This document shows positions 32,589 to 43,428 of a stretch of DNA of 59,164 nucleotides, in pieces (position 1 is the stretch's first letter; every line of letters begins with the position of its first letter). This DNA comes from Cytophagales bacterium. Lineage in GTDB: Bacteria > Bacteroidota > Bacteroidia > Cytophagales > Bernardetiaceae. Both the position numbers and the translations under genes were made by a program. The notes beneath the pieces were generated by a model. That model saw only the letters and a program-made list of their open reading frames with translations. It searched no databases and was not told the origin of the DNA. Where the stretch lies: positions 1-59,164 of the forward strand of contig JAAFJX010000024.1 of the NCBI GenBank assembly GCA_013299045.1, read 5' to 3'.

Positions 32589-33745
32589 AGGTTTTCCGCA
32601 TCAAAAATACTTGTATATTGGGGCTTAACGTTTACCTATGTCTATAAGTTCATATTTTAGTGTCGTCCAAGATTTTCGTGTTCTAGGTCGTTGTAGCCAT
32701 TCACTAAGCGATATTTTGGGTTTAGTTTTACTTGGTATTTTGGCAGATTGTGATGATTTTCTAGAAATATTTGATTACGGGAATCAAAATATAAACTTTC
32801 TCCGCAGCGATTTAGGTTTTACTTTTGCGAATGGTATTCCTAGTAAAGACACCTTAGAAAGAGTCTTTAAACATCTTAAAACAAGCGATTTAGAACAATG
32901 CTATCAATCCTTTTTAGGGGATTTATCCCTAGCCCGTAAGCAGATTTGTATAGACGGCAAAGAACTGAGGAGCACCATTCCTTCAGGGCACAAACACGCC
33001 CTAGTGCGTATGGTAAACGCTTGGGTAGTAGAATCAGGGCTAAGTTTTGGGCAGTATCAAGTAGGTGAAAAGAGCAATGCGATAATGGCCATTCCAAGTT
33101 TGTTAGCAACTTTGGATTACAAAGATGCAGTAGTCAGTATCGATGCGATTGCGTGCCAAAAGCCTATTGTGAGCCAAATTCGTGAGCAAGGTGCAGACTA
33201 TGTGATTAGTTTAAAAGGCAATCAAGGCGAATTACACCAACAAGTGGTCTAAGAGTTTGCCCTAGAAGCGGCTCAGATGCCCTCCTTTACACAGACAGAA
33301 AAACAAGGTGGGCAAACAGAAATTCGTCAAGTAACCGTTTGCTCACAGCCTAAATGGATTGAAAATCAAACCCATTGGAAAGACCTCAATACGGTGGTTA
33401 TGGTAGACAGAACAAGGCAATATATAGGCGAAGAACAAAATAGTAAATTGTTTTATATCAGCAGTTTAGTTAATCCAACACCTTAAAAAATGGCACAATA
33501 TATTAGAAATCATTGGGCTATTGAGAACCAACTTCATTGGCAATTAGACATTACTTTTCGGGAAGATGATGCCAAAATTCGCAACCAAAATGCAATCATT
33601 AATTTGCACCAAGTTAGAAAATGGGCATTGCTAATCTTGAAAAAGATGCCTGAAAAAATAAGTATAAAAAGAAAACGAAAAAAAGCCCACAAAGACAACC
33701 TTTATCTCTTAAAATTATTATCCTAAATTTTGATGCGGAAAACCT
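32589..33745 (+). mobile_element. ISAs1-type insertion sequence, 1157 bp
   Basis: Terminal inverted repeats of 18 perfect bp, AGGTTTTCCGCATCAAAA at 32589-32606 and its complement at 33728-33745, bracket a single transposase reading frame. The bases immediately outside (CAGAGT left, GCTTAT right) do not form a target-site duplication. The insertion is therefore old, rearranged or adjacent to a deletion. It marks the left edge of the accessory island. Confidence 0.9.
32638..33726 (+). pseudogene. ISAs1-family transposase interrupted by two in-frame stops
   Basis: One frame runs 363 codons from ATG 32638 to TAA 33724-33726, with TAA at 33250-33252 and again at 33484-33486. Family features lie on both sides of the stops: ICIDGKELRSTI (first Asp region), VSIDAIACQKPIV (second Asp), and NHWAIENQLHWQLDITFRED (the final Glu region). 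No frameshift is needed to join the three parts, and the full length matches intact members. Two point changes to stop codons are the simplest explanation. Sequencing error is the alternative. Confidence 0.88.
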
Positions 33746-33954: not shown

Positions 33955-34593
33955 ATGAGTTCAACATTCGACAAAAATTTATTACCCCAATTCGACAGCG
34001 TTAAAGACAATGACGAAGAAATTTTATGGACAGGAAAACCGAAATTCATTCCCTATATTTTTAGCGGACTTGGTGCGGGACTTTTCACATTAGCTTTTGG
34101 AATTGTTTGGGTTTTGGGTAACTATAATATCAAGCCCGACAATGTAGAAAGTGGTTCAGGTTGGAATTACTTTTGGCTTTTTGGACTTATTCCTTTGCTT
34201 CAAGGACTTTATGTTTTTCTCAATAGACTTTTATCATTTTCTAACACTGCATACGGTTACTCAAACAAGCGTGTAATGATGCGGACAGGTTTTATCGGAA
34301 CAGACTTTAAGACAATTGACTATGACAAAATCTCAGACATTGAAGTAACCGTCAATATTATTGAGAGAATGTATAATGTAGGTTCAATTCGATTTTTTAG
34401 CGGACGAACACAAACTGACGAAGGGAATACAACTAAACTTTATGACGTTTGGAGTGCAATTGAAAATCCTTACGAAGTATTTAAAATGGTTAAACAGACT
34501 TCGGTTGACATCAAGACGGACTTTAACTATCCAAACGCATTGCGACCAGAAACAAACCCTGGCTATAAGACAAAGTATGACAGAAAGGATTAG
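33955..34593 (+). CDS. Bacterial PH-domain (bPH/YdbT-like) membrane protein
   Basis: The 212-residue protein has an N-terminal segment ILWTGKPKF, two membrane helices (about 40-60 and 76-98), and a C-terminal PH-like domain. The domain begins YGYSNKRVMMRTGFIGTD and continues TIDYDKISDIEVTVN with a GSIRFFSG strand. This is the bPH2/YdbS-like layout; the function is not established. The ATG at 33955 was chosen because the upstream in-frame ATG lies inside the attC-like hairpin. The gene is bracketed by two hairpin-rich spacers and looks like a one-gene cassette. Confidence 0.75.
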   Translation: MSSTFDKNLLPQFDSVKDNDEEILWTGKPKFIPYIFSGLGAGLFTLAFGIVWVLGNYNIKPDNVESGSGWNYFWLFGLIPLLQGLYVFLNRLLSFSNTAYGYSNKRVMMRTGFIGTDFKTIDYDKISDIEVTVNIIERMYNVGSIRFFSGRTQTDEGNTTKLYDVWSAIENPYEVFKMVKQTSVDIKTDFNYPNALRPETNPGYKTKYDRKD

Positions 34594-34621
34594 CATAAAC
34601 TTAACCGACAAAGAAGCCCGA

Positions 34622-34757
34622 ACCGCTAACAACACCTACAAGAAATTGGTGGGTTCAGTGCTTAAGTGAAGCTTTGTGCTTCTATTTAAGTTCGGTGCTG
34701 GTTGACAGTTTTGTGCTCCGAAATCCGCCACATCGCCAAGCCTTTTCCGTTATGCCC
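34622..34757 (+). other. attC-like hairpin site B
   Basis: The segment starts CCGCTAACAACACC and ends CCAAGCCTTTTCCGTTATGC. Its outer arms are partly complementary (GGTGGGTTC against GAAATCCGCCA). A central stem-loop pairs CTTAAGTGAAGC with GCTTCTATTTAAG. It separates the PH-domain gene from the RM locus. The rest of the 406-bp spacer (to 34999) shows no gene. Confidence 0.45.
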
Positions 34758-34999
34758 AATGCCACGAGACCGCCTACGAACATTGACAGTACAACAAAAA
34801 ACAGACAGAAAAGAAAAGCCAATGCTTCGTAAAATTAAAAGGGCTGCAAGCCAACGCACAAAACCAACGCTTTTGCACCACATTTTATTTTGCCCTACCG
34901 CACCCCAAGCCTACCAATTACCCAACAATTTAACAAAACTATTGCAGACAAGACTTTTAAATTGTAAATTCGCAACTCAAATTATAACTGCATTAATAT

Positions 35000-36595
35000 A
35001 TGAGTGAAGACCAAAAAAAACTATTAAAAGACCAGCTTTGGAATATTGCCAACGACCTTCGTGGCCAAATGAATGCAGACGAATTTCGCGATTATATTTT
35101 AGGATTTATATTCTACAAACATTTGAGTGAGAAAATGGAAATGTTTGCCAACGGAATTTTGAAACAAGACAAAATAAAATTCCGTAACATTAACCCTAAA
35201 CTCGCAAACAGTCAAGAATACCTCAATGCCATACAAGAAGAAGCATTAGAGAAATTGGGTTATTTTCTGAAACCCGAAGAACTGTTTACGGAAGTTTGTA
35301 AAAGAGGTAACGGAAACAATAGCGAAGAGTACAAGTTTGATGTTTCTAAAACAAACTTTATACTTGAAGACCTACAAAAAATACTCACCAACATTCAGTT
35401 GAGTACAATGGGTACAGACAGCGAAGACGATTTTGATAATCTCTTTGAGGATATGGATTTGAATAGTACCAAATTGGGTAAAACGCCCGAACAACGCAAC
35501 GAACTCATAGCCAAAGTGTTGTTTCGTTTAGATAAAATTGATTTTAAACTCGAAAATACTGAACTCGATGTGTTAGGCGATGCCTACGAATATTTGATAG
35601 GACAATTTGCAAGTGGTGCAGGCAAAAAAGCAGGAGAATTTTATACACCTCAAGAAGTAAGTAAAATATTGGCTAAAATTGTAACCACAGGCAAGCAAAA
35701 ATTAAAATCGGTGTACGACCCTACTTGTGGTTCGGGTTCGTTATTGCTACGAGTAGTAAAGGAAGTAAAAGAAGTAAACAACTTTTACGGACAAGAAAGG
35801 AACCGTACTACCTACAACTTGGCTCGTATGAATATGATATTGCACGGGGTGCATTATCGCAAGTTTGACATTAAGCAAGAAGACACTCTTGAACACCCAC
35901 AACACTTGGCTGTTTTGCCTTTTGAAGCCATTGTAGCCAACCCACCTTTTTCGGCACAATGGAGTGCAAACCCTTTGTTTACAAGCGATGACCGTTTTAG
36001 TCAATATGGTAAACTTGCCCCAGAAAGCAAAGCAGACTTTGCTTTTGTTTGCCATATGATACACCACCTTGCCGAAAATGGAACTATGGCAATTGTGTTG
36101 CCACACGGTGCATTATTTCGTGGTGGTGCAGAGCAACACATTCGTAAATATTTAATTGAAAGCCGAAATTATTTAGATGCCGTAATAGGCTTACCTGCCA
36201 ATATTTTTTATGGCACAAGCATACCTACTTGCATTATGGTTTTTAAAAAATGCCGAGAAAACCCTAACGATGTATTGTTTATTGATGCCAGCAATGACTT
36301 TGAAAAAGTAAAAACCCAAAATATATTGCGAGATGAGCATATTGATAAAATAATTACGCATTATCGTAATAGAACCGAAACCGAAAAATATAGCAAAAAA
36401 GCTAGCCTTACCGAAATAGCTACCAACGACTTTAACTTAAACATACCTCGTTATGTAGATACGTTTGAAGCCGAAGAAAGCATAGATATTGATGCCATTG
36501 CCACTGAACTAAAAGCATTGGATAACGATATAAAAAGCACCGATAATGTGATAGCAGGATTTTGTAAAGAATTGGGTATTGAAACCCCATTTTAA
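35000..36595 (+). CDS. hsdM: Type I restriction-modification methyltransferase subunit
   Basis: HsdM methylates adenine in the bipartite target chosen by HsdS. The 531-residue protein has the N-terminal HsdM domain (LWNIANDLRGQMNADEFRDY), the SAM-binding motif YDPTCGSGSLL (from 239), catalytic NPPF (314-317) and a C-terminal helical tail for HsdS contact. The segment GAGKKAGEFYTPQEV is typical. The sequence is AT-richer than the chromosomal neighbours. The stop is followed four bases later by a 43-bp repeat unit. A promoter is not obvious in the spacer upstream. Confidence 0.96.
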   Translation: MSEDQKKLLKDQLWNIANDLRGQMNADEFRDYILGFIFYKHLSEKMEMFANGILKQDKIKFRNINPKLANSQEYLNAIQEEALEKLGYFLKPEELFTEVCKRGNGNNSEEYKFDVSKTNFILEDLQKILTNIQLSTMGTDSEDDFDNLFEDMDLNSTKLGKTPEQRNELIAKVLFRLDKIDFKLENTELDVLGDAYEYLIGQFASGAGKKAGEFYTPQEVSKILAKIVTTGKQKLKSVYDPTCGSGSLLLRVVKEVKEVNNFYGQERNRTTYNLARMNMILHGVHYRKFDIKQEDTLEHPQHLAVLPFEAIVANPPFSAQWSANPLFTSDDRFSQYGKLAPESKADFAFVCHMIHHLAENGTMAIVLPHGALFRGGAEQHIRKYLIESRNYLDAVIGLPANIFYGTSIPTCIMVFKKCRENPNDVLFIDASNDFEKVKTQNILRDEHIDKIITHYRNRTETEKYSKKASLTEIATNDFNLNIPRYVDTFEAEESIDIDAIATELKALDNDIKSTDNVIAGFCKELGIETPF

Positions 36596-36598
36596 AAC

Positions 36599-36641
36599 TG
36601 TCTGAACTATGATTTTTGTTGATTAAATGATTACTATGATT
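36599..36641 (+). repeat. 43-bp RM-locus repeat, unit R1
   Basis: Begins TGTCTGAACTATGATTTTT and ends ACTATGATT. It lies 3 bp after the hsdM stop. Related units, direct or inverted, recur at 37635-37725, 38317-38416, 39014-39280 and 39674-39716. The candidate ATGs of the rhuM remnant lie inside this unit. Confidence 0.85.
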
Positions 36642-36830
36642 AAAATAAACCAACAATTTACTTACACCTCAAAGCAAAACATAGGGCAACACATTGCAAG
36701 CATATTGGAAGACAATGAGTTAGACCAAAATTCAGTTATAAAGAATTACTTTACAACTGCTACCAATGGTAAAGCTAATTATGCCGAATTCGCCACAATT
36801 AAAAAAAATAAAAACTATGGCAAAAAGTAA
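36627..36830 (+). pseudogene. Remnant of a RhuM-like gene
   Basis: A 67-codon frame contains SKQNIGQHIASILEDNELDQ followed by NSVIKNYFTTATNGK. This matches the early helix-turn-helix part of RhuM family proteins, which usually continue with DGKNYxTxxYNLD. Both ends are replaced: the left by repeat R1, the right by sequence leading into the KilA-N gene. It overlaps the KilA-N start by 14 bp. A full rhuM gene of about 330 codons is expected in intact homologues, so this looks like a deletion scar. It may still be translated. Confidence 0.6.
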
Positions 36831-37641
36831 AACTATAAATGTAAAAGGAACTGAAATTGCAATTATTCAAAAAGATAATTCTGACTATATTTCATTAACC
36901 GATATGGTAAAAGGCTTTGGAGATGACACAATGATATATAGTTGGATGCGTAATAGAAATACATTGGAGTTTTTGGGCATTTGGGAAGAAATGAACAATC
37001 CCAATTTTAAAGGTAACGAATTCGTAACCTTTAAAATGCAAGCAGGGTTAAACAATTTTAATCTGACACCAAAAAAATGGATAGATGCCACAAATGCCAT
37101 TGGTATTCAATCTAAAGCAGGCAGATATGGAGGTGGTACATTTGCCCATAAAGATTTAGCTTTTGAATTTGGCTCTTGGTTAAGCCCTGAATTTAAGTTG
37201 TATTTAATCAAAGAATTTCAACGCCTTAAAGATGATGAAAATGATAGGCTGAAACTTACTTGGAACTTACAACGTACCCTTGCCAAAGTAAATTACCGAA
37301 TACATACCGATGCCATAAAAGAAAAGCTACTGCCACAAGCATTGCCCAAAGAAAAAATAAATTTTGTATATGCCGACGAAGCCGACTTGCTAAACGTAGC
37401 CTTATTTGGCATTACAGCCAAACAATGGAGAGAGGCCAACCCCAAAGCCGAAGGCAATATTAGAGACGAGGCTACTATTGAACAATTGGTTGTACTCTCA
37501 AACCTTGAAAGTATAAATGCGGTACTCATACATCAACACCTAAGCCAACCCGAAAGATTACAACAATTGAACAGCATTGCTATTACGCAAATGAAATCTT
37601 TATTGGGTAATCATAATCTTAAAAAACTAAAAAATGTCTAA
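36817..37641 (+). CDS. KilA-N domain protein
   Basis: A 274-residue protein with an N-terminal KilA-N DNA-binding domain: DYISLTDMVKGFGDDTMIYSW, then RNTLEFLGIWEEMNNP, the conserved WIDATNAIGI and GTFAHKDLAFEFGSWLSPEF. The C-terminal half (about 140-274) is helical and ends NHNLKKLKNV. KilA-N proteins are frequent within type I RM loci of this phylum; their role there is not established and could be regulatory. The ATG at 36817 is the natural start. The TAA stop at 37639-37641 lies inside a copy of the 43-bp repeat family. Confidence 0.85.
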   Translation: MAKSKTINVKGTEIAIIQKDNSDYISLTDMVKGFGDDTMIYSWMRNRNTLEFLGIWEEMNNPNFKGNEFVTFKMQAGLNNFNLTPKKWIDATNAIGIQSKAGRYGGGTFAHKDLAFEFGSWLSPEFKLYLIKEFQRLKDDENDRLKLTWNLQRTLAKVNYRIHTDAIKEKLLPQALPKEKINFVYADEADLLNVALFGITAKQWREANPKAEGNIRDEATIEQLVVLSNLESINAVLIHQHLSQPERLQQLNSIAITQMKSLLGNHNLKKLKNV

Positions 37642-37725
37642 ACCTTGATTTACAAGATTATACAATGAAACAACAAATAGAAAATCATAGCCATCAGGCA
37701 AATCACAAAAATCATAGTGCAGACA
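37635..37725 (+). repeat. 43-bp repeat family, inverted pair R2 spanning the hsdS start
   Basis: The left arm begins TGTCTAAACCTTGATTT at 37635 and supplies the stop of the KilA-N gene. The right arm (37681-37725) is the complement of a unit beginning TGTCTGCACTATGATTTTT. The hsdS ATG (37665) lies between the arms, so the right arm is translated as the HsdS N-terminus. Confidence 0.8.
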
Positions 37726-39011
37726 ATGTGCCCACCCTGCGTTTCCCTAAATTTAATGGAGATTGGGAGAAGAAAAAGTTGGGGGAAATGTGTGAGAATA
37801 TTATGTATGGAATGAATTCGGCAGCAATTCCTTTTGATGGAGAAAATAAATATTTAAGAATTACTGATATTGATGAAGATTCAAGAGAATTTATACCTAA
37901 ACCATTGGTTTCTCCTGATGGAGAAATTGAAGAAAAATATAAATTAAAATATGGTGATTTAGTATTTACTAGAACAGGTGCAAGCGTAGGTAAAACGTAT
38001 TTATATAATACAAAAGACGGCAATTTATTATTCGCTGGGTTTTTGATAAAGTTCTCAATTGTTTCTGGAAATCCATATTTTATTTTTTCGCAAACTTTAA
38101 AAGAAAATTACAATAAATGGGTTCTAAAAATGTCAATGCGTTCTGGTCAGCCTGGTTTAAATGCAGAAGAATGTAAAGAATTAGATATCTCTTTCCCCAC
38201 CCTCGCCGAACAAACCAAAATAGCTGAATTTTTCACAGCCATAGATGCCAAAATACAAGCCCTCAAAACCAAAAAACAACTTTTACAGCAATACAAAAAA
38301 GGGGTAATGCAACAACTGTTTTTAAACTATGATTTGAATGATGAAATGAATACTATGATGGACAACAGTAAAAATCATAGTCAATCACAAAATCAAAAAA
38401 ATCATAGTGCAAAACAATTACGCTTTAAAGATGAAAATGGCAAACCCTTTCCTAAATGGGAAAAGAAGAAGTTGGGGGAGGTTTTAATTAAAAATTCTAC
38501 AAAAAATAAAAACCAAAAGTATTCATTAGTTCAAAGTGTTAGTAACAAACACGGATTTATAAATCAAGATGAAATGTTTGAAGATAGAAGAGTTGCAAGT
38601 AAAGACACATCAAATTATTATGTAATTGAAAAAGGTCATTTTGCTTATAATCCTTCTCGTATAGATGTTGGTTCATTAGCATATAAATTTGATGACGAAA
38701 TTTCTACAATTAGCCCATTATACATTTCCTTTAAAGCAAATCAACAATATTTAACGGATGAGTATTTATTAAATTGGTTTTCAATAGAAGAGTTTTTAAT
38801 GCAAATGAATAATTCTTTTGAAGGTAGTGTAAGAAATACATTGAGTTATGAAAGTTTGGTAAGAATGAAAATTTCAATCCCTTCCCTTCCCGAACAAATC
38901 AAAATCGCCCATTTTCTATCTTCCATAGATGAAAAAATAAACCATACTGAAGCCCAAATACAACAAACACAAACTTGGAAAAAAGGCTTGTTGCAGCGTA
39001 TGTTTGTGTAA
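37665..39011 (+). CDS. hsdS: Type I restriction-modification specificity subunit
   Basis: HsdS selects the bipartite DNA target. The 448 residues hold two target-recognition halves. The first starts LRFPKFNGDWEKKKLGEM (about 25) and the second starts LRFKDENGKPFPKWEKKKLG (about 249). Each ends in a coiled-coil segment with TLAEQTKIAEFFTAID and SLPEQIKIAHFLSSID respectively. Just before each half is an Asn-His-Ser-rich stretch (NHSHQANHKNHS and NHSQSQNQKNHS) encoded by copies of the 43-bp repeat. This gives a symmetric, modular protein whose halves could be exchanged by recombination. The gene lies 23 bp after the KilA-N gene. A canonical hsdM-hsdS-hsdR order is kept. Confidence 0.94.
   Translation: MKQQIENHSHQANHKNHSADNVPTLRFPKFNGDWEKKKLGEMCENIMYGMNSAAIPFDGENKYLRITDIDEDSREFIPKPLVSPDGEIEEKYKLKYGDLVFTRTGASVGKTYLYNTKDGNLLFAGFLIKFSIVSGNPYFIFSQTLKENYNKWVLKMSMRSGQPGLNAEECKELDISFPTLAEQTKIAEFFTAIDAKIQALKTKKQLLQQYKKGVMQQLFLNYDLNDEMNTMMDNSKNHSQSQNQKNHSAKQLRFKDENGKPFPKWEKKKLGEVLIKNSTKNKNQKYSLVQSVSNKHGFINQDEMFEDRRVASKDTSNYYVIEKGHFAYNPSRIDVGSLAYKFDDEISTISPLYISFKANQQYLTDEYLLNWFSIEEFLMQMNNSFEGSVRNTLSYESLVRMKISIPSLPEQIKIAHFLSSIDEKINHTEAQIQQTQTWKKGLLQRMFV
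38317..38416 (+). repeat. 43-bp repeat family, inverted pair R3 inside hsdS
   Basis: The left arm, starting TGTTTTTAAACTATGATTTG (38317-38360), is related to unit R1. The right arm (38370-38416) is its inverted counterpart. The pair lies between the two recognition halves and keeps the reading frame, encoding the central linker. Confidence 0.8.
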
Positions 39012-39013
39012 AT

Positions 39014-39280
39014 TGTCTTGAACTATGATTTTTGTATGATTAAATGAAAACTATGATTATAAACAATAAAAATCATGGGTCATCAAATAACCAAAAAAGA
39101 CATAGTTCAAGACAATTATAGTCCATCAAAAAATCAAAAAAAACATAGTTCAAGACAATCATAGTCCATCAAAAAATCAAAAAAAACATAGTTCAAGACA
39201 ATCATAGTCCATCAAAAAATCAAAAAAAACATAGTTCAAGACAATCATAGTCCATCAAAAAATCATTAAAATCAAAGTTT
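39014..39280 (+). repeat. 43-bp repeat family R4: inverted pair plus four-unit tandem array
   Basis: A left-type unit (39014-39060, TGTCTTGAACTATGATTTTT) is followed by an inverted right-type unit (39068-39116). Right-type units are then repeated in tandem, with CATAGTTCAAGACAATCATA starts at 39101 (its TATAGT variant), 39144, 39187 and 39230. The period is exactly 43 bp. The array fills the gap between hsdS and the GxxExxY gene. There are no spacers between units. Confidence 0.92.
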
Positions 39281-39288
39281 AGAAAAGT

Positions 39289-39681
39289 ATGATTAAAAAC
39301 GAATATGCTGACAGCGAATTGACAGGCAAAATAATTGGTTGTGCTATGGAAGTACATAAAATATTGGGCAATGGTTTTCAAGAAGTAATTTATCAAAGAG
39401 CATTGGCTATAGAAATGAACAATGCAGGATTAGAATATAGTAGAGAACACGAAATGGATATTTTTTACAAGGGCGAAAAAATTGGAGGCAGACGAGTCGA
39501 TTTCTTTGTAGAAGGCAAAATAATGGTAGAGTTAAAAGCAGTTATTCAATTAGAAGATGTGCATTTGGCACAAGCCATAAATTATTTAGAAGCGTACAAA
39601 ATGCAGATTGGTTTATTGATAAATTTTGGTTCTCAAAGCTTACAATTTAAAAGAGTAATGAAACCTCAAAGAAAATCATAG
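39289..39681 (+). CDS. GxxExxY protein (PD-(D/E)xK-like)
   Basis: A 130-residue protein with the eponymous motif GFQEVIY (29-35). A probable nuclease-fold core includes RRVDFFVEGKIMVELKA, giving Asp71 and Glu81-x-Lys83. This fits the PDDEXK_3 family; the biochemical activity is unknown. It sits inside the RM operon between hsdS and hsdR. Repeat units of the same orientation lie on both sides, and its TAG stop (39679-39681) is provided by the downstream repeat unit. That suggests the gene entered or moves as a repeat-bounded module. Confidence 0.85.
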   Translation: MIKNEYADSELTGKIIGCAMEVHKILGNGFQEVIYQRALAIEMNNAGLEYSREHEMDIFYKGEKIGGRRVDFFVEGKIMVELKAVIQLEDVHLAQAINYLEAYKMQIGLLINFGSQSLQFKRVMKPQRKS

Positions 39682-39716
39682 TCCATCAAAAAATTATTAA
39701 AAACATAGTTCAGACA
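39674..39716 (+). repeat. 43-bp repeat family, unit R5
   Basis: A right-type unit ending AAACATAGTTCAGACA, lying between the GxxExxY gene and hsdR. It contains the GxxExxY stop codon and ends 2 bp before the hsdR ATG at 39719. Confidence 0.85.
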
Positions 39717-39718
39717 AA

Positions 39719-42592
39719 ATGGCTAAACAATCCGAACAAGTATTAGAAGAACAATTGGTAGCACAACTGCAAAAGTTGGGTTATGGTTTGGCTATAATAA
39801 AAGACGAAAAAGCCCTAATTGCCAACCTCAAAACCCAATTAGAAAAGCACAATGGCGTAGCGTTTACCAAAACCGAGTTTGAACGAGTGCTTAATATTTT
39901 GAGCAAAGGCTCAGTATTTGAAAAAGCCAAAACGCTACGAGAAAAACAGCACATTGTAAGAGACAATGGCGACAACCTGTATTTTGAGTTTATGAACACC
40001 GAGCATTGGTGTCAAAATGAGTACCAAGTTACCCACCAAGTAAGCCAAGAAGGCACTTATAAAAACCGATATGATGTTACACTTTTAATCAACGGTTTAC
40101 CATTGGTACAAATAGAACTCAAACGCAAAGGTTTAGAACTCAAAGAAGCCTTCAATCAAATCAATCGCTATCAGCGTCATTCCTTTGGAGCGAGTGTGGC
40201 ATTGTTTCAGTATGTACAAATTTTCATTATCAGTAATGGAGTAAATACAAAGTATTATGCCAACAACCGAAACCAAAGTTTCAAACAAACATTTTATTGG
40301 ACAGATGTAGAAAACAAACGCCTTACCAATATCCTCAATGGTTTTACCGATGCCTTTTTAGAACCTTGCCACATTAGCAAAATGATATGCAAATACATTG
40401 TGCTAAACGAAGCTTATAAAATACCAATGGTGCTTCGTCCTTATCAATTTTATGCCGTTGAAGCCTTAATTGACAGAGTAAAAAACACGGATAAAAATGG
40501 TTATATATGGCATACCACAGGCAGCGGCAAAACCTTAACAAGTTTTAAAGCCAGCCAAATATTGATGAATTTGCCACAGGTACACAAAGTGGTTTTTGTG
40601 GTAGATAGAAAAGATTTGGATTATCAAACCACCAAAGAATTTAATAGTTTTAGTAAAGGCAGTATTGATGGAACGGACAGCACCAAAGCCTTGGTAAAAC
40701 AATTTACCGATGGCACAAAGCTAATCGTAACCACCATTCAAAAACTAAATACGGCAATCAGCAAATTGAAGTATGAGGCAAAAATGGCTGAACTGAAAGA
40801 TAAACGTATCATATTTATTTTTGACGAGTGCCACCGAAGTCAGTTCGGCGATACGCATAATCGTATCAAGTCGTTTTTTACTAATATTCAAATGTTTGGC
40901 TTTACAGGCACACCCATATTTGCCGAAAATGCTAACAAAAACGAATTAGGCAAAAGAACCACCAAAGATTTGTTTGAAGACTGTTTGCACAAATACGTCA
41001 TTACCGATGCCATAAAAGACGAAAATGTATTAAAGTTTTCGGTAGAATATGTAGGGCGTTACAAACACAAAGATGGCAAAGAAACCAATATTGATATTGA
41101 GGTGGAAGACATTGACACTAAAGAGTTGATGGAAGATGCTACCCGATTGGAGAAAATATCAGATTACATCATTGCACATCACAATCGCAAAACCCAAAGC
41201 AGAACTTTTACAGCGATGTTTTGTATCAATAATGTACAAACGCTAATAAAATATTACGACATACTCAAACGCAAAAAAGAAGAAGGTAAACACAATTTAA
41301 ACATTGCAACCATTTTTAGTTATGCAAGCAACGAAGACGATTTAGATGCCAATGGTTTCTTGCCCGAAGAAGTTTCGGTAGTAGAAGAACCAAGAGCCTT
41401 GTATGGATTACAAGCACACAGTCGTGAAAAGTTAGACGAGTTTATCCAAGACTACAACAAACTGTTTGACACCAAATTTAGCACCCGAGACAGCGAAAGT
41501 TTTTACACCTATTACAACGACATTTCTAAAAAAGTAAAGGAAAGAAAAATAGATATATTGTTGGTAGTCAATATGTTTCTAACAGGTTTTGACAGCCCAA
41601 CACTAAACACCTTGTATGTAGATAAAAACTTAAAATACCACGGACTAATACAAGCATACAGCCGAACCAACCGAATAATAAACGAACAAAAAAGTCAAGG
41701 CAATATTGTTGTTTTTCGTAATCTAAAAGAGAGAACAGACGAAGCCATTACTTTATTTAGCAACAAAGAGGCTATTGAAGTAATTATTATGCAACCTTAT
41801 GAAGACTACACCGCCAAGTTTGATGAAGCCTTTGAAAATTTATTAAATGTTACGCCAACCACAGACAGCGTAAACGATTTAATAAGTGAAGATGACGAAT
41901 TAGAATTTATAAAAGCATTTAGAAACCTAATGCGTATAAAGAATATTCTCACTTCGTTTTCAGACTTCAAATGGGAAGATGTACAAATGACAGAACAGCT
42001 TTTTGAAGATTTTAAAAGCAAGTATTTGGATTTATACGACAAGGTAAAATCCGACCACCAAACCGAAAAAGTATCTATTTTAGAAGATGTAGATTTTGAA
42101 TTAGAGTTAATTCACCGAGACGAAATAAATGTAAACTACATTATTCAATTGTTGATTAAGTTGAAACAAAGTTTACTAAATACTACGTTACCACAAGAAA
42201 AGAAAGAGCAAATTATAAAAGAAATTCAAAACTTATTAGCCACAGAAGTAGAATTACGAAGCAAACGAGAACTCATAGAACGCTTTATACAAGAGAACTT
42301 GCCAGTAATTGTCGACACAGACGAAGTACAAACAGAGTTTGATAAGTTTTGGAGTGAAGAACAACAAAAGGCATTTCAACAAATTGTAATAGAAGAAAAT
42401 CTATCAGCCGAAAAAACAGAAAAGCTAATTGAAAATTATTTATTTGCTGAAAGAGAACCTTTGAGAGATGAAGTATTAGAACTTATTGAAGGAGAAAAAC
42501 CAAGCCTATTGCAACGCAAAAAACTAGGCGACAGAATTTTGAAACGAATAATAGACTTTGTAGAAACATTTATAAACGGAATGACAGGATAA
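39719..42592 (+). CDS. hsdR: Type I restriction-modification endonuclease/translocase subunit
   Basis: HsdR translocates DNA using ATP and cuts distant from the target. The 957-residue protein has an N-terminal PD-(D/E)xK nuclease with YDVTLL (Asp119) and QIELK (Glu133, Lys135). The SF2 motor follows, with Walker A TTGSGKT (266-272), a DECH box (from 369), and FGFTGTPIF. A helical C-terminal domain is rich in Glu/Lys. All catalytic motifs look intact, so the RM system should be functional. The ATG follows repeat unit R5 by two bases. Confidence 0.96.
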   Translation: MAKQSEQVLEEQLVAQLQKLGYGLAIIKDEKALIANLKTQLEKHNGVAFTKTEFERVLNILSKGSVFEKAKTLREKQHIVRDNGDNLYFEFMNTEHWCQNEYQVTHQVSQEGTYKNRYDVTLLINGLPLVQIELKRKGLELKEAFNQINRYQRHSFGASVALFQYVQIFIISNGVNTKYYANNRNQSFKQTFYWTDVENKRLTNILNGFTDAFLEPCHISKMICKYIVLNEAYKIPMVLRPYQFYAVEALIDRVKNTDKNGYIWHTTGSGKTLTSFKASQILMNLPQVHKVVFVVDRKDLDYQTTKEFNSFSKGSIDGTDSTKALVKQFTDGTKLIVTTIQKLNTAISKLKYEAKMAELKDKRIIFIFDECHRSQFGDTHNRIKSFFTNIQMFGFTGTPIFAENANKNELGKRTTKDLFEDCLHKYVITDAIKDENVLKFSVEYVGRYKHKDGKETNIDIEVEDIDTKELMEDATRLEKISDYIIAHHNRKTQSRTFTAMFCINNVQTLIKYYDILKRKKEEGKHNLNIATIFSYASNEDDLDANGFLPEEVSVVEEPRALYGLQAHSREKLDEFIQDYNKLFDTKFSTRDSESFYTYYNDISKKVKERKIDILLVVNMFLTGFDSPTLNTLYVDKNLKYHGLIQAYSRTNRIINEQKSQGNIVVFRNLKERTDEAITLFSNKEAIEVIIMQPYEDYTAKFDEAFENLLNVTPTTDSVNDLISEDDELEFIKAFRNLMRIKNILTSFSDFKWEDVQMTEQLFEDFKSKYLDLYDKVKSDHQTEKVSILEDVDFELELIHRDEINVNYIIQLLIKLKQSLLNTTLPQEKKEQIIKEIQNLLATEVELRSKRELIERFIQENLPVIVDTDEVQTEFDKFWSEEQQKAFQQIVIEENLSAEKTEKLIENYLFAEREPLRDEVLELIEGEKPSLLQRKKLGDRILKRIIDFVETFINGMTG

Positions 42593-42870
42593 GCCAACGC
42601 TTTTAGTAGCACATTTGCATTTTTTTTAACGCATAAACCAATGCTAAAAAATGCAAAAGAGCTACCAAGCCAACGCACAACGATACGACAAAAAAAACGA
42701 AATGTACAGACGAGAGAAGGCACTAGGCATAACAAGGGTTTGAACGCAATGGGGGCAGAAGTAGTAAATTCAACATTTGTACTTCTATTTGGCTTTGGTG
42801 CTAAATTGAACATTTGTACTTCTAAACCCCAACTTCGCCAAGCGCCAAACCGTTAGCGGTCAGTGTAACA
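42586..42870 (+). other. attC-like spacer C: two hairpin modules with direct repeats
   Basis: The 303-bp spacer after hsdR has no gene. First, AAGCCAACGC at 42591-42600 and again at 42667-42676 flanks a hairpin pairing GTAGCACATTTGCATTTTTT with AAAAAATGCAAAAGAGCTAC. Second, GGCATAACAAGGGTTTG (from 42726) and CGCCAAACCGTTAGCGG (to about 42859) form partly complementary arms. These enclose a 22-bp direct repeat, TAAATTCAACATTTGTACTT at 42765 and its one-mismatch copy at 42802. Both resemble integron cassette boundaries. Confidence 0.5.
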
Positions 42871-42895
42871 ACAATAGAAAACTTACAACGAAAAT

Positions 42896-43428
42896 ATGAG
42901 TAGAAAAGTAATTTTATACATCGCAATAAGTTTGGACGGTTACATTGCTAAACCAAATGACGACCTAAGTTTTCTTTCAATCGTAGAACAAAAAGGGCAA
43001 GACTATAGGTTATGCGGACTTCGTAAAAACGGTGGACACTGTTATTGTTGGACGCAAAACTTATGAAAAAGTAATTTCTATGGGTTTTGACTTTCCACAC
43101 GCAGACAAAGACGCATACATCATCACAAGGACACCAAAACAAAACGTAGGTTCAATAAAGTTTTACATAGGCGACCTCAAAATACTCATTGAAAAACTTA
43201 AAGCAGAGAATGGAAAGAATATATTTTGTGATGGTGGAGCAGAAATCGTACACGAACTTTTAAAAGAGAATTTAATTGATGAGTTTATAATTTCGGTTAT
43301 TCCAATCTTAGTTGGCAACGGAACAAAACTATTTAAAGACAGCAGACCCAGAACTAAAATTGAAATTGGTTTCAACGAAACAGTTTGAAAAAGGACTAAC
43401 ACAACTTCATTACAAACGTACAAATTGA
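42896..43428 (+). pseudogene. RibD C-terminal/DHFR-like reductase gene with two frameshifts
   Basis: Reading from ATG 42896 gives SRKVILYIAISLDGYIAKPN, the start of the RibD-C/DHFR-like family. An extra base near 43006 (TATAGGTTAT in place of an expected TATGGTTAT) shifts the frame. The next frame carries TVDTVIVGRKTYEKV through PILVGNGTKLFKDSRP. A second extra base near 43370 shifts again, and the third frame ends VSTKQFEKGLTQLHYKR before TGA 43426-43428. Joined, the parts make a full-length ~177-residue reductase. The gene is therefore inactivated, or the assembly has two single-base errors. Confidence 0.85.

Follow-up and report, generated by a model that had tools for sequence, protein, structure and literature searches.

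Repeat units at the hsd locus

The stretch of DNA analyzed here (the window) comprises 59,164 nucleotides from a Cytophagales bacterium of the Bernardetiaceae (GenBank assembly GCA_013299045.1, contig JAAFJX010000024.1, positions 1 to 59,164, forward strand). It carries a type I restriction-modification (R-M) locus whose genes lie on one strand in the order hsdM, rhuM fragment, KilA-N, hsdS, GxxExxY and hsdR (Table 1). The initial annotation, made from the sequence alone, had described a family of 43-bp repeats at the boundaries of these genes and had proposed either a recombination-based module exchange system or a small mobile repeat targeting this type of locus. The repeats are considered here as the possible ends of a unit carrying the GxxExxY gene.

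Repeat units were confirmed by inspection and by a profile at all the places claimed. When oriented alike, the units between hsdM and hsdR form one family of approximately 43 bp with a common terminal motif resembling CATAGTTCAGACA. Besides the lone arms E1 (inverted) and E5 of Table 1, they lie at 37683-37725, 38373-38415 and 39071-39242, the last being a tandem array of four 43-bp copies and part of a fifth. A profile of eight window units scored 33.9-56.1 bits at the units and at most 12.7 bits anywhere else in the window, and its best score on ten dinucleotide-resampled windows was 18.6. An imperfect palindrome underlies the family, each 43-bp unit being one of its arms; left arms (L) begin with TGTCTGAACTATGATT, right arms (R) end with AATCATAGTTCAGACA, and GAT steps are spaced 8-10 bp. 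Complete L-R hairpins (left arm, short loop, right arm), which the initial annotation had not noted as such, mark the start (E2), middle (E3) and end (E4) of hsdS, and the ends of E1 and E5 are complementary at 17 of 18 bases. The tandem array at 39071-39283 is the right arm reiterated; Tandem Repeats Finder (TRF) reported 39081-39279 as 4.6 copies of 43 bp at 94%. The gene-less palindromes E2-E4 have inverted-repeat ends and no transposase gene inside, as do miniature inverted-repeat transposable elements (MITEs).

The stop codon of KilA-N (37639-37641) lies within E2 and that of GxxExxY (39679-39681) within E5, which ends 2 bp before the ATG of hsdR. The coordinates thus bore out the statement that the repeats supply both stops and end just ahead of the hsdR start.

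None of 200 shuffles each of E2, E3 and E4 folded as well as RNA as the originals (z values in Table 1). Despite these strong values an RNA-level hairpin was not favored, with no excess of G-U-compatible mismatches between L and R arms (0.387 within units, 0.423 between units) and no Rfam match at gathering scores in 34500-43000; the locus is a protein operon and does not lie in 23S rRNA.

Allowing one mismatch, the core CATAGTTCAGACA matched the host genome 4 times (reversed control, 5), and 3 of these matches, including both exact ones, were at the hsd locus. A longer relaxed pattern gave 7 matches, all at this locus, and none in the control. A genome-wide host repeat in this wording was rejected on these grounds. 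Similar short intergenic repeats (TTTGTACTTCTA-like) were seen by eye at 34640-34720 and 42765-42824, beyond both ends of the hsd operon, and may delimit an island.

Table 1. Genes and repeat features between hsdM and hsdR
Feature	Position	Strand	Evidence
hsdM	35000..36595	+	TIGR00497, 3.3e-133
E1, lone L arm directly 3' of hsdM	36599..36641	+	inspection, profile
rhuM fragment, 67-aa ORF beginning inside E1	36627..36830	+	83% identity over 36 aa to a RhuM protein; no Pfam match
KilA-N domain gene, stop codon from E2	36817..37641	+	PF04383, 8.5e-22
E2, L-R hairpin at KilA-N/hsdS junction	37635..37725	+	fold z -3.04
hsdS, two target recognition halves	37665..39011	+	PF01420, two stretches
E3, L-R hairpin in frame between two HsdS halves	38316..38414	+	fold z -4.96
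E4, L-R hairpin just 3' of hsdS	39013..39113	+	fold z -5.92
Three additional tandem R arms (43-bp period) and a partial, reaching GxxExxY start	39114..39283	+	TRF
GxxExxY, PD-(D/E)XK nuclease fold (predicted)	39289..39681	+	TIGR04256, 1.9e-41; PF13366; model pLDDT 92.1
E5, lone R arm before hsdR	39674..39716	+	inspection, profile
hsdR	39719..42592	+	TIGR00348, 3.1e-144

Arms around the GxxExxY subfamily

Outside matches of the first relaxed pattern fell in two genomes, and in each a GxxExxY gene touched the arm, one of these genes being truncated. A set of 80 GxxExxY loci of the window's subfamily (type 1) was then used, being the best 80 of 569 confirmed loci fetched by a GxxExxY protein pattern and not by arms; of 10 query proteins, 8 had come via arms (the exceptions being those of the window and of L111, described below), and the set therefore samples this subfamily. 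It consists mostly of metagenome-assembled genomes (MAGs) and of genomes named Bacteroidota or Chlorobi, and also holds records named Nitrospirae, Calditrichota, Cyanobacteria (Crocosphaera, Anabaena), Oscillochloris and a Spirochaetaceae MAG.

With a profile iterated on the flanks of these loci, arms were detected at E<=1 upstream in 79/80, downstream in 72/80 and on both sides in 71/80, and 8/160 control segments were positive. As this profile is partly circular, the search was repeated with the window arms alone, which found arms in 111 of the 160 flanks and in 3 of 160 controls. Aligning the upstream flank with the reversed downstream flank, using no arm model, gave z>4 in 40/79 loci (L152, with a short flank, was left out) and in 1 of 158 control places.

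The usual arrangements were L-gene-R, LR-gene-R and LR-gene-LR. In 45 of the 80 loci the last arm ahead of the gene ended within 15 bp of the matched gene start, being an L arm in 30 and an R arm in 15. Stop codons of co-directional upstream genes fell inside the outer L arm in 41/68 cases and at most 30 bp before it in a further 18/68; in 33/60 the start of the downstream gene lay in the interval from 46 bp ahead of the end of the outer R match to 30 bp beyond it, the commonest offset being +2 (11/60) and that of the window hsdR +4 by this measure. L arms held stops in all three frames in 52/66 cases (shuffled, 54%). The proposal that arms are tuned for translatability was rejected, since only its L half held; in R arms, open frames were fewer than after shuffling. 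At L221:1172-1729, a 5' fragment of GxxExxY precedes an L arm and then a complete copy, as though the unit had inserted into itself.

Arms differed between GxxExxY subfamilies. A second subfamily (type 2) has GLLESAYEECL-like residues where type 1 has GFQEVIYQ, and was represented by 30 GxxExxY loci, the best matches of the phylum (L114-L143). Inverted flanks with z>4 were found in 21/30 of these, many made of CACAGAG-like steps. Type-1 arms were found on none of 60 type-2 flanks; arms of a profile seeded from type-2 flanks were found on 23/60 type-2 flanks and on 0/160 type-1 flanks. Judging from these sequences, iterated arms specific to each gene may be a general feature of GxxExxY. Within type 1, arms from 66 of the 80 loci (E<0.05) were compared, and similarity between L and R arms was higher within a unit than between units (mean score 18.5 vs 14.8; 0 of 5000 permutations as high, n=66).

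The host genome has a second type-1 GxxExxY gene (L111, G000:C65:6690-7061), which by eye lies between hsdS- and hsdR-like genes and whose arms are worded differently from those of the window (GTCTGAATCAGGATT). A locus of another genome, L298, resembles L111 in arm wording and in protein and has a different hsdR context. Four-helix-bundle (TIGR02436) genes (L224-L253) also had inverted flanks with z>4 in 7 of 30 loci, for example L244 in the window's own genome.

Link to restriction-modification operons

A type I hsd gene was found by phmmer within 1.5 kb of 31/80 type-1 loci, and in 11/29 of a phylum sample of type 1 (one locus per genome, that of the window excluded). By the same measure the count was 0/30 for type-2 loci and 0/30 for four-helix-bundle loci, and stretches more than 4 kb off in the same loci contained such genes in 3/54. 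With 7-kb flanks, a type I gene was found in 35/80 loci (phmmer). Direct upstream neighbors matched the Pfam family Methylase_S in 16/77 cases; direct downstream neighbors matched Methylase_S in 8/76, HSDR_N in 10/76 and Virulence_RhuM in 9/76. Other direct neighbors included Eco57I and MmeI methylases, and the remainder were mixed and included housekeeping genes.

Seven kinds of junction were occupied, namely S/R, R/M, R/S, M/S, S/M, S/RhuM and M/RhuM. At L298, L-GxxExxY-R lies at an hsdS/hsdR junction, and armless hsdM-hsdS-hsdR operons of the same hsdM family were present at L297, L300 and L301. Related hsdR operons also differed in the order of downstream genes.

Arms without the gene

The 17-base core, allowing one mismatch, gave 80 matches in 35 of the 296 sampled genomes of the phylum, and the reversed control gave 7 matches in 7 genomes. 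A type-1 gene was more frequent in genomes bearing the core than in those without it (17/35 vs 45/261; Fisher 9e-5). Among 62 stretches fetched around the core in other genomes, 9 held type-1 GxxExxY, 5 a type I hsd gene and 4 both. The initial annotation had stated that units at random genomic places with no link to R-M genes would refute its proposal, and the finding of hsd in only 5 of the 62 goes towards such a refutation. Hairpins were present in G191, a genome with no GxxExxY match. In G248 (L091-L098), many arm-like hairpin copies have a recurring GCGGGGTGGATGG flank, and a different amplifier may be at work there.

Flanking duplications and copy number

Direct duplications of 23-42 bp abut the arms in a few GxxExxY copies and in a few gene-less hairpins; the test of GxxExxY units covered 92 of 118 loci. 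A perfect 39-bp duplication abuts both arms at an hsdS end (L048/L254), as does one of 23 bp, also at an hsdS end (L214), and one of 42 bp (L215). L144 has three hairpins, each followed by approximately 30 bp of the hsdS end. At L298 the first 23 bases of hsdR occur on both sides of the unit, alike at 17 of 23 positions; 0.00035 of random pairs reach 16. The first repeat of L144 differs from the hsdS end by synonymous changes only, and the L298 repeat is largely synonymous. These differences suggest that in L144 and L298 the unit brought with it part of a related donor gene.

Several candidates were set aside. The flanking repeats of L063 and L060 were not counted as abutting, as their downstream copies begin 12-13 bp past the hairpin. 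A putative empty site for L060 was provided by G514, G495 and G529, which have one copy of an approximately 55-bp segment and no hairpin, compared with two copies around the hairpin in G266; it was not counted, because this segment is itself repeated elsewhere in the genus (L331, L337) and because an arm-like TTGTCTGAA lies slightly further on in G514. The only pair of identical copies, in G243, was rejected as recent transposition, since identity was 100% over 11.2 kb near both ends of one contig (redundancy). Carriage as phage cargo was rejected with no match in 50,697 phage records, and as plasmid cargo with matches in 8 of 72,556 plasmid records, only one of which exceeded 60% identity (L316) and had one weak arm match (E 0.011).

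The GxxExxY protein

The window protein scored 141.1 bits against TIGR04256 (curated cut-off, 35) and also matched PF13366 (PDDEXK_3), making it a clear member of this family. GxxExxY matches were found in 152 of the 296 genomes. An AlphaFold2 model from 90 aligned sequences (L166 and L221 were left out, having stop codons) had a mean pLDDT of 92.1. D71 and K83 are invariant in the 90 sequences and E81 is at least 90% conserved; the modeled fold and this D...ExK active site place the protein in the PD-(D/E)XK nuclease superfamily. The nearest solved structure was SSO0001, a Cas4 protein (Foldseek 1.9e-5; Z 9.8, rmsd 4.1, 100 residues aligned). The next fold matches, among them R.SwaI and archaeal Hjc, were at approximately Z 7, and below Z 8 likeness may reflect a common arrangement only. 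A search of PDB sequences with the GxxExxY alignment gave no match. The matched stretches were stop-free in 78 of 80 loci. GxxExxY may act on its arms or on cruciforms.

By eye, at L312:4212-6860 GxxExxY is fused in frame, through a short linker, to a RecQ-like helicase, and open frames of 883-896 aa with this fusion are present in G084, G096, G111 and G217.

Hairpins in hsdS and comparison within the genus

In the window, the L arm of E1 is fused to rhuM approximately 40 codons into the gene, the R arm of E2 is read as the N-terminus of HsdS (NHKNHSADN), and E3 is translated as KNHSQSQNQKNHSA between the HsdS halves. Hairpins also occur in frame at the place equivalent to E3 in L193 and L151, the hsdS of the latter being split in two frames, and the HsdM frame of L195 contains one as well. 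The two HsdS halves of the window end alike (KKGVMQQLF and KKGLLQRMF), and a single target preference could therefore explain both E3 and E4.

The only other genome of the same genus in the sample (G001, 84% complete) has hsdM in two overlapping frames, a full rhuM, an L-R hairpin, a broken hsdS and hsdR, with the hairpin at the same position as E2. E2 therefore looks inherited, and in the window rhuM appears to have been cut down and replaced by KilA-N. In the same-genus genome (L308:4200-4850), the gene interrupting hsdS has a motif resembling that of REP-associated tyrosine transposases. Upstream of hsdM in the window, an ORF at 32638-33252 resembles an ISAs1-type transposase by eye. No recombinase was found among the searched genes between hsdM and hsdR, and there is a single hsdS there, so that the site-specific recombinase and silent hsdS copies of an inverting, phase-variable system were not seen among these genes.

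Interpretation of the repeats

The reading favored here is that a compact, probably mobile unit has these repeats as its ends, has given rise to gene-less hairpin derivatives and favors gene junctions of R-M operons; this reading is put forward tentatively, with confidence just short of evenly balanced. The unit would consist of an L arm (approximately 43 bp), the GxxExxY nuclease gene (approximately 0.39 kb) and an R arm (approximately 43 bp), about 0.5 kb in total. GxxExxY, alone or in a complex, would recognize its own inverted GAT arrays, and insertion by staggered cutting and repair would leave target duplications of variable length. L-R hairpins would be internally deleted derivatives of the unit. 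By inserting at gene boundaries and carrying stop and start codons in its arms, the unit would keep the host operon readable, and several copies per operon could serve as portable homology for module exchange (KilA-N for rhuM, HsdS halves). The gene is nearly always armed and the arms are often geneless, a pattern that would fit a unit with gene-less derivatives but also a repeat moved otherwise. The proposal of a small mobile repeat targeting this locus type was thus close, in that the arms track one GxxExxY subfamily and, via it, R-M genes; what changes is that the repeats are taken as the ends of GxxExxY units and their gene-less derivatives.

Several observations weigh against a mobile GxxExxY unit. 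Duplications at p<=0.01 were found in just 4 of 92 GxxExxY units and vary in length; L164 has an 11-bp match that does not abut upstream, and that of L168 abuts one side only. No movement was observed and no fresh multiplication within a genome was seen, and copies are few (1-4 in each of 62/296 genomes at E<=1e-40). The own partner arm was the best match in only 7/66 units, similarity of arms correlated weakly with that of proteins (Mantel r 0.13, p 0.0015, n=65), and GxxExxY covaried with the adjoining hsdR (Mantel r 0.47, p 0.003, 18 loci), so that GxxExxY is often inherited in place. R arms were no more open to translation than shuffled ones. Some of the core matches are due to chance (80 vs 7 with the control), type-1 GxxExxY is absent from 18 of the 35 genomes bearing the core, 52 of the 62 core stretches hold neither type-1 GxxExxY nor type I hsd, and G248 has 14 core matches and no GxxExxY match at all.

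Because copy number is low, co-inheritance with hsdR is partial and many arms are geneless, two readings stay alive beside the mobile unit: an R-M accessory and a repeat mobilized by something else. The main rival is that GxxExxY is a functional R-M accessory aiding restriction, for example by trimming DNA ends or as a back-up nuclease, with the arms serving as binding sites or as operon control elements coupling translation across junctions. The restriction of R-M linkage to one subfamily (31/80 and 11/29 vs none of the type-2 or four-helix-bundle loci), the conserved active site and the nearly always stop-free gene, the fold closest to SSO0001, the low copy number and the partial co-inheritance with hsdR all agree with it. 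We nevertheless consider it unlikely, as 45/80 loci have no type I hsd gene within 7 kb by phmmer (though some have other R-M genes), seven kinds of junction are used, no control role is obvious for the gene-less hairpins within hsdS and the G-U bias expected of RNA control was not seen. That the arms are a passive intergenic repeat (MITE- or REP-like) spread by another enzyme, with GxxExxY as a frequent passenger or landmark, would suit the free-standing arms elsewhere, most of which are near neither GxxExxY nor hsd, the hairpins of G248 and G191 and the duplications that flank gene-less hairpins; nearly every type-1 member fetched is bounded by arms, however, and the other subfamily has arms of its own, which is hard to reconcile with a passenger and makes this reading improbable.

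Recombination-based module exchange, in which the repeats would be maintained for the swapping of HsdS halves and accessory genes by recombination between them, was rated as quite improbable. Hairpins do bound both recognition halves of the window HsdS (E2, E3 and E4), as in domain movement, and occupy the central position in L193 and L151; KilA-N in the window and rhuM in G001 lie between the same boundaries, and the gene order downstream differs among related hsdR operons, so that gene content between units varies among related operons as had been predicted. Against this, the link to GxxExxY accounts for the arms unaided, no swapped alleles were seen at strain level, and elsewhere the arms mostly occur without hsd genes. 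No recombinase was present among the searched hsdM-hsdR genes either, and a dedicated exchange system stays a hypothesis; the repeats are taken as the ends of GxxExxY units and their gene-less derivatives, not as a free-standing recombination code. Hairpin copies in hsdS would also permit recognition halves to be exchanged, as is described for Helicobacter pylori (PMC3077401).

Comparison with known elements and significance

In REP/REPIN systems with RAYT, a dedicated DNA-processing gene is flanked by palindromes that also occur alone. The gene here differs in being the PD-(D/E)XK protein GxxExxY and not an HUH Y1 transposase, and copy number is low; no RAYT was present among the 25 Pfam families listed for neighbors on each side, nor in those genes of the window locus that were searched. 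Intervening sequences of 23S rRNA have inverted ends. Those with an S23p/four-helix-bundle ORF are small selfish units with a single ORF (PMC4990558), in which the likeness lies; here the protein is different and the sites are protein operons, not rRNA. In the type I hsdS of Helicobacter pylori, repeats at the start and centre reportedly bound the recognition halves. Domain movement is described for that gene (PMC3077401). Repeats bound the halves in both cases; those of the window are palindromic and also lie outside hsdS, and exchange between them is putative. Rickettsia palindromic elements (RPE) are described as palindromes of approximately 150 bp, many in frame within protein genes (PMC10969869). 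The likeness of RPE and other MITEs to the present repeats lies in the palindromes and in-frame insertion; the arms here also bound a nuclease gene, and it is the form with this gene that is concentrated in R-M operons. The gene-less hairpins share their ends with GxxExxY units; no transposase was seen adjoining the units, none having been sought by shared ends. The open-licence PMC literature yielded no description of these arms or of R-M linkage of GxxExxY.

In its fullest form, the mobile-unit reading would make L-GxxExxY-R a previously undescribed minimal self-propagating element, with a Cas4-like nuclease of approximately 130 aa, a subfamily-specific arm code, insertion at gene boundaries, target duplications of tens of bases and gene-less hairpins, which occupies R-M operons across several phyla and reshuffles restriction specificity. 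This fuller claim is possible, if rather doubtful. The mobile unit would give a concrete context to GxxExxY, a widespread 'unknown' gene family, and would account for puzzling palindromes and 'KNHSSD'-like peptides in HsdS. It would also offer a testable route by which restriction operons may gain, lose and reorder their parts.

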